Origin: a virus
Direction: 5' to 3' (one strand)
DNA: 43,178 nt
Virus record (IMG/VR): IMGVR_UViG_3300042542_002782
Location: 1 to 43,178 of that record
Below the pieces are notes generated by a model. It was not told the origin of the DNA, did not search any database, and was given only the letters and a program-made list of their open reading frames with translations. This document shows positions 11,036 to 12,778 of the stretch, piece by piece. The stretch's first letter is position 1. Each line of letters opens with the position of its first letter. A program made the translations under genes and the position numbers.

Positions 11036-11569
11036 ATGACACAACTAACAAAACTTCCAACACTTCAGGACCTATTAGTAGAAAATGAAGACAGCCTTAA
11101 ACAAAATGCGCTAACTGTATTGCTTAATCAAGATCCACCCGCAAAGTGGTTAGTTCAGCACCCAATGATTCGCGATTACCGATATATTCCTATTGAAAAA
11201 ATAGAATACTTACTAACGCGTATCTTTGGAAATTTTAACGTTGAAATTCGTTCAACACAGATAGTTGCTAATAGCGTTGTAGTAACTGTAAGACTGCATG
11301 TAATAAACCCTATTTCAGGCCAACCAATGTGGCAAGACGGCATAGGCGCTGCAGCAATTCAAACTGACAAAGGTGCAGGCGCAACCGATTGGAACGCCGT
11401 TAAAACCGATGGTGTTCAAAAAGCCGCACCAGCTGCCGAAACTTACGCCGTTAAAGATGCTGCCGAAAAGTTTGGTAAAATATTTGGCCGCGATGTTAGC
11501 CGTAAAGGCAGTATGAATTATACTGATTTGCTTAAAAAATCAGCTTTTAATGATGAATTAGAAAAATAA
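11036..11569 (+). CDS. Rad52-like single-strand annealing protein
   Basis: 177 residues. The segments YIPIEKIEYLLTRIFG, VVVTVRLHVINPISGQPMWQDGIGAA and AETYAVKDAAEKFGKIFG follow the Rad52/Sak-type annealing fold (a beta sheet followed by an alpha helix carrying DAxxxxxxxFG). It pairs functionally with the RecE-like exonuclease upstream and with SSB. The start is preceded by AACTTCA-N4-ATG, the only plus-strand instance I found at that spacing. Family assignment (Rad52-like versus other phage annealing proteins) is moderately sure. Confidence 0.85.
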   Translation: MTQLTKLPTLQDLLVENEDSLKQNALTVLLNQDPPAKWLVQHPMIRDYRYIPIEKIEYLLTRIFGNFNVEIRSTQIVANSVVVTVRLHVINPISGQPMWQDGIGAAAIQTDKGAGATDWNAVKTDGVQKAAPAAETYAVKDAAEKFGKIFGRDVSRKGSMNYTDLLKKSAFNDELEK

Positions 11570-11575
11570 AAGTGT

Positions 11576-11583
11576 TATATTTG
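11576..11583 (+). promoter_or_regulatory. -7 promoter box in front of the structured RNA
   Basis: TATATTTG matches TAnnTTTG and begins seven bases after the Rad52-like stop. No TTTG lies at the normal upstream distance. Transcription would begin near 11588-11590, exactly where the first RNA hairpin begins. Confidence 0.5.
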
Positions 11584-11588
11584 TGTAT

Positions 11589-11680
11589 TGATTCGGCACT
11601 ACAATGAATCATAAAAGATATTTAAAGCCCTGAATGATATAGGTAGTAGTGCCCCTATTGATTTCGGGGCTTAGTTTTTT
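11589..11680 (+). ncRNA. Structured RNA candidate: two hairpins with complementary loops and terminator tail
   Basis: Hairpin 1: TGATTC (11589-11594) pairs with GAATCA (11606-11611) around the loop GGCACTACAAT. Hairpin 2: AAGCCCTGAA (11625-11634) pairs with TTCGGGGCTT (11663-11672), one G-T; ATAGG (11639-11643) pairs with CCTAT (11654-11658). Between these stems TGAT faces TGAT, which can form tandem G-A pairs. The hairpin 2 loop contains GTAGTGCC (11646-11653), an exact complement of GGCACTAC in loop 1, so the loops can kiss. AGTTTTTT follows, as in an intrinsic terminator. It could be a roughly 90-nt small RNA, or a regulatory leader of the GIY-YIG gene that starts at 11693. Confidence 0.65.
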
Positions 11681-11692
11681 AAAAAATATGTT

Positions 11693-12415
11693 ATGTTGAC
11701 TTATAAGCAAATAATGTTAAATGGATATAAACCATATTTACAATTTAAAGATTTGTTTGGAAATCCAATGACAAATAATTTTAAAAAAGCAGATTATTTT
11801 AAAAAAACAATAAAAATTAAATTTGGAGATTTACCAGATAATATTCAAGAATTTTATTATGAAACTTATGATTTTCATGATAAAGAACAAGAAATAAATA
11901 TTGAATTTAAATTATTAAAAGAAGATAATGAATGGATTTTATATTGTTCAGAAATTGCAGAATATTATGATTATAAAATTGATAATATAGATGACCTTAA
12001 AAAAAAGGAAAAAGAACATTTAAGTATGTTTAAAAAAAAATATCAATTTGATGATTATTCATTTATCTACATTATAAAATGTATTTATGGAATAAAAATC
12101 GGAGTTTCTAATAATCCTTTTAACAGAATATCACAAATAAAAACTTCAAGCCCTTTTAATATTGATTTATTGCATATTTTATTTATTGATAAAAAACATG
12201 TTTATAAAATAGAAAAAGGTTTACATAAGCATTTTAAAGATAAAAAAATTAGTGGTGAGTGGTTTAACCTAAATGAAATTGATTTAAAAATTATTTATTT
12301 AAGTTATGTTTTGTTTCTTCCATTATATTCATTAGATTTTATAAAAAATGGTGATTTAAGTATTAAAGAATCAGATTTATCAATTTTTGATTTTTATTTT
12401 ACTGATTATTCTTAG
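11693..12415 (+). CDS. GIY-YIG-like (T5orf172/MUG113 type) protein, 240 aa
   Basis: Residues about 122-193 carry the domain: SFIYIIKC then YGIKIGVSNNPFNRISQIKT (the equivalents of the GIY and YIG motifs with Arg145), IEKGLHKHF with Glu174, and SGEWFNL. Residues 1-115 are acidic and unrecognised. The gene is far more AT-rich than the flanking recombination and terminase genes and uses many Lys, Ile and Asn codons, so it looks like an inserted cargo or homing-type gene. Whether it is an active nuclease cannot be judged from sequence alone. Confidence 0.8.
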   Translation: MLTYKQIMLNGYKPYLQFKDLFGNPMTNNFKKADYFKKTIKIKFGDLPDNIQEFYYETYDFHDKEQEINIEFKLLKEDNEWILYCSEIAEYYDYKIDNIDDLKKKEKEHLSMFKKKYQFDDYSFIYIIKCIYGIKIGVSNNPFNRISQIKTSSPFNIDLLHILFIDKKHVYKIEKGLHKHFKDKKISGEWFNLNEIDLKIIYLSYVLFLPLYSLDFIKNGDLSIKESDLSIFDFYFTDYS

Positions 12416-12432
12416 TAATAAATAAAAATAAA

Positions 12433-12464: not shown

Positions 12465-12502
12465 CCATTACGGCAGCCTACTGCTAAAAACGTTCTTTCT
12501 AC

Positions 12503-12720
12503 TTGTTAACACCATGTTACGCCAATTGTAACGCATAAAACGCTGATAATCATAGCTTGTTACGCTGTTACACTTGTTACACCATTTCAACACGTATATG
12601 CGTGTATTTTTTATGTTTATTCTCACATATATGTAGAATATAGTGTAACATACGTAACAGTGTAACATGTACTATATATCAATTACTTATGTGTTACACT
12701 TAATGTAACAAGTGTTAACA
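12503..12720. repeat. Array of about 12 GTTAC/GTAAC boxes (iteron-like)
   Basis: In this gene-free stretch (12416-12872) variants of TGTTAC/GTAACA occur in both orientations: around 12503, 12515, 12526, 12557, 12566, 12574, 12643, 12654, 12660, 12691, 12704 and 12712. Several form inverted pairs, e.g. GTGTTACAC at 12691-12699 next to TGTAACA at 12704-12710. Iteron-type replication origins, terminase binding sites and multi-site operators all look like this. No credible gene is seen on either strand. Confidence 0.75.
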
Positions 12721-12778
12721 ATAATAATAAATAATAATAATAATATAAATAATAATACTAATAATAATATAGATAATA
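12718..12778. repeat. TAA/AAT trinucleotide-rich tract, possible DNA unwinding element
   Basis: About 60 bases made almost only of AAT/TAA units, directly after the last GTTAC box. Easily melted AT tracts next to iterons are a hallmark of replication origins. From 12779 to 12872 I see nothing further except an AT-rich approach to the terminase gene. Confidence 0.6.

Follow-up and report, generated by a model that had tools for sequence, protein, structure and literature searches.

An RNA leader with kissing loops, probably an undescribed control switch of Flavobacteria-type phages

The locus

The DNA analysed here, called the window, is a viral stretch of 43,178 nucleotides (IMG/VR record IMGVR_UViG_3300042542_002782). 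Between the gene of a Rad52-like annealing protein (11036-11569) and the gene of a GIY-YIG protein lies a small structured RNA with two hairpins, the loops of which are complementary to each other. The features are as follows.

11567..12428, plus strand: exchangeable module (RNA and gene), missing from empty-site relatives, with AAAAATAAA at both edges
11576..11583, plus strand: -7 promoter element TATATTTG of the Bacteroidota type TAnnTTTG, seen in the sequence
11589..11611, plus strand: hairpin P1, stem 11589-11594/11606-11611, 6 bp, from the fold; 5' end of the predicted transcript
11595..11602, plus strand: K, the loop-1 octamer GGCACTAC, pairing with K', from sequence and covariation
11612..11624, plus strand: A/T-rich linker of 13 nt, partly conserved (AAAGA..(G)TTATT in relatives; alignments A2 and A3)
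11625..11672, plus strand: hairpin P2, from fold and covariation
11625-11634/11663-11672, plus strand: P2a, 10 bp with one G-U, part of P2
11635-11638/11659-11662, plus strand: internal loop TGAT/TGAT of P2, seen in the sequence
11639-11643/11654-11658, plus strand: P2b, 5 bp, part of P2
11646..11653, plus strand: K', the loop-2 octamer GTAGTGCC, exact complement of K in the sequence and conserved like K
11663..11680, plus strand: 3' arm of P2a and T-run (11675-11680), predicted intrinsic terminator; the T-run after P2 is kept in relatives
11693..12415, plus strand: gene of a GIY-YIG/T5orf172 (MUG113) protein

The promoter box, hairpins, complementary loops and T-run had been proposed in a first-pass annotation of the bare sequence, and its coordinates are right to the base. 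It placed the GIY-YIG gene 13 bases downstream; the gene does adjoin the RNA, but its start codon at 11693 is 12 nt past the T-run. The octamer GGCACTAC occurs a single time in the window, and the fold of the RNA strand beats all but one of 200 shuffles (z -2.55 and -2.97). An out-of-frame ATG overlapping the start-codon region (ATGTTATG, window 11689-11695), a few bases upstream, is seen in many relatives.

Covariation and spread of the RNA

Pattern scans of IMG/VR, filtered for loop complementarity, yield a larger and divergent set of relatives. Alignment A2 consists of 28 sequences, and a covariance model was built from it without the kissing helix. The model matches, aligned using this A2 model, make up alignment A3 of 85 sequences. 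The relatives are mostly metagenomic contigs, many of them near-identical, and the shuffles preserve dinucleotide tendencies only approximately.

In A2, 97.7% of the cells are paired and two-sided changes are found at 19 of the 28 pairs. Its kissing helix is paired in 224 of 224 cells (100%), with compensatory changes at five of the eight pairs, and 0 of 500 shuffles reach the observed pairing or covariation score. In A3, 98.3% of the base-pair cells are paired, compared to 32-52% in slid controls, and 26 of the 28 pairs show two-sided compensatory changes. The covariation score of 0.673 compares with 0.183 for shuffles and a maximum of 0.147 for slid controls. Two-sided changes are present at all five modelled pairs of P1 (99.3% of cells paired), at all ten pairs of P2a (98.3%) and at all five of P2b (98.4%), while the kissing helix is paired in 97.3% of cells and shows compensatory changes at six of its eight pairs. 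A covariance search had been proposed earlier as a check, together with the possibility that stems or loop complementarity would turn out not to be conserved in homologous loci. The outcome is the opposite, as both are conserved and compensatory changes are found in both stems and in the loop-loop helix of the 85 aligned relatives. The window RNA with its complementary loops is confirmed as real, far beyond chance.

There are 26 distinct P1-loop octamers among the 85 RNAs, and all eight kissing pairs are kept in 80 of the 85 (G-U allowed). The kissing helix is 7 bp long and shifted in register in L240 and L231; L295 has a perfect 8-bp pair in a different register, and L281 has seven pairs. Only L294 (800-893) contains two real loop mismatches (GGTCTGAC vs GTGAGAGC), and it is perhaps a recombinant or a decaying copy. 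The linker between P1 and P2 measures 13-16 nt in this family.

Each RNA-bearing record that was searched has one strong copy of the window-type sequence family. A covariance-model search of about 800 Bacteroidota genomes, with the best 10 candidates scored per genome, found one divergent member, L218, in a Flavobacteriaceae genome; absence from the other genomes means little, as such a first look scores only these 10 candidates. An exact-pattern search of 398 Flavobacteriales genomes gave no match, and a genome scan with the group-1 pattern, which excluded the larger group, gave 29 matches with none passing the kissing filter. The promoter type, the L218 match and the cultured phages described below indicate that the family is carried by Bacteroidota-type phages.

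Promoter, terminator and position before genes

The Flavobacterium promoter consensus is TTTG/TANNTTTG, with the -7 element at -12 to -5 (PMC6847099). This element is present in nearly all relatives, and the group-2 members have a TTTG-N17-TATATTTG promoter in which the upstream TTTG is about 17 nt away. From the location of the -7 element at -12 to -5, transcription in the window is predicted to start at about 11588, at the base of P1.

A co-directional start codon is located 0-44 nt past the T-run in 137 of the 139 instances of the first set, and the two exceptions are overlapping loci on a single contig. In the second set, 66 of 70 instances have a start codon within 23 nt. A promoter-like element between the RNA and the next gene is seen only in a single contig without a nearby gene. 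In L064 the RNA is intact with no gene behind it, and the promoter is altered to TATATTTT. Of 39 ordinary terminators in the same isolate records, nine have a start codon no more than 50 nt behind them, compared to 4 of 4 kissing terminators under the same strict filter, a small sample that is supportive. Position alone is only moderate evidence, as most genes of a phage module point the same way with little space between them. Taken together, the locus has the anatomy of a cis-acting attenuator, i.e., a promoter, a short leader with an intrinsic terminator and a start codon, with no intervening promoter.

In the broad set, the next gene encodes DUF6291, a DnaD-like helicase loader or an O-like initiator, either directly or after one small ORF, and a helicase/primase comes after the replication protein. 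Judged by these annotations, the genes behind the leader form the phage replication operon in most relatives. The suggestion of the first-pass annotation that the RNA is a switch for the GIY-YIG gene is therefore too narrow: the RNA does precede that gene, but it is also found before methylase, CoiA-like and HNH genes and chiefly before genes of the replication operon. Leaders of like design stand before NUMOD4/HNH homing-endonuclease genes in L166 (~8431, minus strand) and L193 (~7085, minus strand) and before a methylase-type gene in L252 (~10989), which suggests that mobile genes either bring such leaders along or insert behind them.

An exchangeable cassette in the lineage of the window

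The Rad52-like gene is located 5' of the RNA, and in most of the 80 viral relatives of this gene that were examined the RNA follows directly after it. The loop pairs among these relatives are GGCACTAC/GTAGTGCC, GCAACCAC/GTGGTTGC, GGTCTCAC/GTGAGACC, GGCTTCAC/GTGAAGCC and GACTTCAC/GTGAAGTC. Alleles A and B have identical linkers, P2 stems and tails, and their difference is essentially limited to P1 with its loop and the facing P2 loop.

In this lineage, the RNA and the gene behind it are a swappable cassette before accessory genes. The empty-site relatives L037, L040 and L041 pick up again at window position 12429. Mapping the RNA allele, or its absence, on the tree of the Rad52-like gene requires 31 changes, vs 31.5 with shuffled labels, i.e., the alleles are randomly scattered. 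Of two identical Rad52 genes, one is followed by allele B and the other has no RNA. The genes behind the RNA encode the GIY-YIG protein, a ParB-type DNA methylase, a CoiA-like nuclease and an unknown protein. In the RNA-less relatives L004, L053, L062 and L074, the gene at this site has an ordinary leader and its own TATCTTTG promoter. A code linking loop to cargo is ruled out, as alleles A and B, read with a manual correction of the start-codon frame, each stand before at least three kinds of genes.

Kissing terminators in cultured phages

Cultured phages were inspected for the same architecture in the intergenic region ahead of their replication protein. It is found in the Flavobacterium tooticki/lillamy/hattifnatt group, 11b, the elemo phages, Olleya phage Harreka, Polaribacter P12002S and Tenacibaculum Gundel_1. 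In Cellulophaga phi13:2 it is seen by eye (CTCTCACAA/TTGTGAGAG) and missed by the detector described below, and Riemerella phage RAP44 has no such leader before its replication protein. These versions consist of a promoter, a hairpin, an A/T-rich linker and a terminator hairpin, with loops complementary over 7-9 nt. They stand at the same place, but their sequence is not alignable to the window RNA, and BLASTN against isolate phages and plasmids found no homologous RNA. Their linkers are longer, about 20 nt by eye.

Two loop layouts can be distinguished. In the first, that of the window, K directly follows the P1 stem and has 3-6 nt behind it. In the second (tooticki, elemo, Gundel), 2-3 nt precede K and the P2 loop has a longer tail, as if the two loop types had exchanged places.

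A detector for a promoter, a hairpin and a terminator hairpin with complementary loops was run on the window and seven isolate phage records. It gives 12 matches, eight of them with a promoter just upstream, and one of the matches is in the window. In 20 Markov shuffles (718 kb of strand), the mean is 7.4 matches, 0.15 with a promoter. The detector thresholds were set once the family was known, so the evidence lies in the comparison with shuffles and not in the absolute count. In tooticki6-1 (L314), a second kissing-terminator leader with other loops (11583-11690) stands before gp032, a gene for an HNH endonuclease, besides the one before the replication operon.

Comparison with known RNAs

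No known class had been recognised at first sight, and the same holds for Rfam. Rfam release 15 gives no match at the gathering threshold for the window, 13 relative loci and two isolate genomes; up to E 10 there are only chance microRNA-type matches elsewhere, in an Rfam set that may lack the guanidine-IV model. Among the papers searched, none describes this leader RNA. The class is new to Rfam, and its likely working principle has a precedent in one riboswitch class.

That class is the guanidine-IV riboswitch (mepA/GGAM-1 motif), in which P1, a linker and P2, an intrinsic terminator, are followed by the start codon, and pairing between the P1 and P2 loops is reported to impede closure of the terminator stem, possibly through stretching of the linker (PMC7736828, PMC11611296). 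The phage RNA likewise has P1, a terminator hairpin P2 and loop-loop pairing, upstream of genes. However, these genes are for replication, endonucleases, methylase, CoiA-like and unknown proteins and not sugE/mepA guanidine exporters. The 8-bp kissing helix of the phage RNA is also freely variable in sequence, it is found in Bacteroidota phages, and such a strong kiss may need no ligand.

Other systems share single aspects with the leader. The rep genes of plasmids (pT181/pIP501 type and IncI/IncB type) are under antisense-RNA-controlled attenuators and loop-loop pseudoknots, and they resemble the phage RNA in that kissing loops in a leader set the expression of a replication initiator. However, the phage RNA carries both loops on one sense RNA and needs no antisense transcript. 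The put antitermination RNA of HK022 resembles the leader in having two stem-loops at the extreme 5' end of an early phage transcript; it is not known to include its own terminator hairpin, and loop-loop complementarity is not its defining feature, which sets it apart on the level of description. Type III toxin-antitoxin operons have the same order of elements: a promoter, a pseudoknotted RNA, there in tandem repeats, a terminator and a ToxN-like toxin gene. A type III antitoxin is ruled out here, as the RNA is a single unit that is not repeated in tandem, and the diverse proteins encoded behind it match no toxin. Terminase genes downstream in the window brought a phi29-type packaging RNA into consideration; it is ruled out, as there is no Rfam match and most relatives adjoin replication genes and not terminase.

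A putative conditional terminator

We suggest that the RNA is a cis-acting leader with a built-in conditional terminator, in which the kiss competes with completion of the terminator stem; on the sequence evidence we consider this fairly probable. Transcription is predicted to begin about 1-3 nt ahead of P1, so P1 would fold first. The loop K' of the half-made terminator hairpin P2 would then pair over 8 bp with K in the P1 loop, and the kissed P1-K-P2b rod would compete against closure of the bottom of P2a. If kissing wins, the polymerase would read through into the gene 0-44 nt downstream, while if P2a closes first, transcription would terminate after about 90 nt. The balance might be set by a ligand, a protein, the growth state or the RNA itself. 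In most phages the leader would control the replication operon, and in the lineage of the window it would serve as a portable control cassette for accessory genes.

The linker of 13-16 nt would have to span about 32-33 stacked layers (6 + 8 + 5 + 4 + 10), i.e., about 90 A. By this geometric estimate the 13-nt linker of the window would be almost fully stretched, which makes a competition between the kiss and P2a plausible. However, the linkers of the isolate phages are longer, so the tight-linker argument is weaker there and not universal. The isolate phages with the same architecture at the same place speak for a conditional terminator, and so do the RNA-less relatives that use an ordinary promoter and leader. 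Besides the kiss, no conserved alternative antiterminator pairing is seen, which counts against it, as does L064, which has the RNA without a gene and with a changed promoter.

The first-pass annotation had offered two options, an independent small RNA or a terminator-type switch. The placement in 137 of 139 instances fits the switch better, and the switching itself is a prediction. A stand-alone phage small RNA of about 90 nt, with both ends locked by the kiss, acting on host or phage targets in trans or as a protein decoy and leaving the downstream gene to leaky termination, is unlikely but deserves to be kept in mind. It would account for the complete gene anatomy from promoter to terminator, for L064, which keeps the RNA with no gene, and for the single strong family copy per record. 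However, the near-constant spacing of 0-44 nt to a co-directional start codon, with no promoter between, would then be hard to explain. At least 26 loop versions imply that there is no common loop target, and the architecture recurs before unrelated genes, sometimes twice per phage.

It can also be speculated that the leader is a dose-dependent terminator, in which the loops recognise each other within and between molecules. Terminated sense-strand leaders would build up with the number of phage genome copies. By kissing nascent leaders in trans (K with K'), they would shift termination in the replication operon, similarly to the antisense RNAs for plasmid initiators, so that the expression of the initiator would gauge genome copies or co-infecting relatives. 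We regard this as improbable. Mutually complementary loops are complementary between molecules too, and replication initiators are controlled in most relatives. Loop alleles are swapped among close relatives while the remainder of the RNA stays identical, and independently of the tree of the neighbouring gene, as expected if loops define compatibility groups; the alleles would be such groups if this reading were true. However, proximity should favour pairing within one molecule, loop turnover is explicable by compensatory drift and recombination, and the leader also stands before endonuclease and methylase genes, for which control by copy number would hardly be meaningful.

Even less credible is a plain strong terminator or insulator between operons in which the loop-loop contact only stabilises the structure. 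P2 is indeed a good intrinsic terminator between gene modules, but it has a promoter to itself about 90 nt upstream and would thus cut short the very transcript to which it belongs. Its position is also tight before genes, and the kissing helix, needless for an insulator, is kept across 26 loop sequences. Chance complementarity in A/T-rich phage DNA is refuted by the conservation with compensatory change and by the shuffles, and with no remaining support it can be dismissed.

Read as a conditional terminator, the leader would be an undescribed RNA class. It would occupy a key point of control, the replication-operon promoter, in many phages that infect one of the bacterial phyla most abundant in water and gut. 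It may help to explain the onset of replication in these phages, and as cultured phages are among the carriers this is testable at once. Kissing between a 5' hairpin and a terminator loop, until now described in a single riboswitch class, may be a general, modular form of transcription control. The freely changing loop-loop helix suggests a programmable design principle, and the leader provides a means of controlling genes in Bacteroidota.

Further elements around the Rad52-like gene

Among isolates, the Rad52-like protein is most similar (48% identity) to a protein of a phage assigned to candidate division TM7, an odd host given the Bacteroidota-type promoters of this phage family.

Empty sites directly after the Rad52-like gene in L014, L026, L031, L037-L039, L043, L058 and L068 contain another promoter-like element (e.g. 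TACTTTTG), with a hairpin and then a strong terminator (CCGCTGTTC...GTGCAGCGGTTTTTTT) behind it. These may form one more small RNA, whose loops are not complementary.

Window positions 12500-12740, past the GIY-YIG gene and ahead of the terminase genes, contain dense inverted and direct repeats of the TGTTACA/TGTAACA type, for which Rfam gives chance microRNA-like hairpins only. The array is kept in empty-site relatives and could be an origin or a regulatory site.
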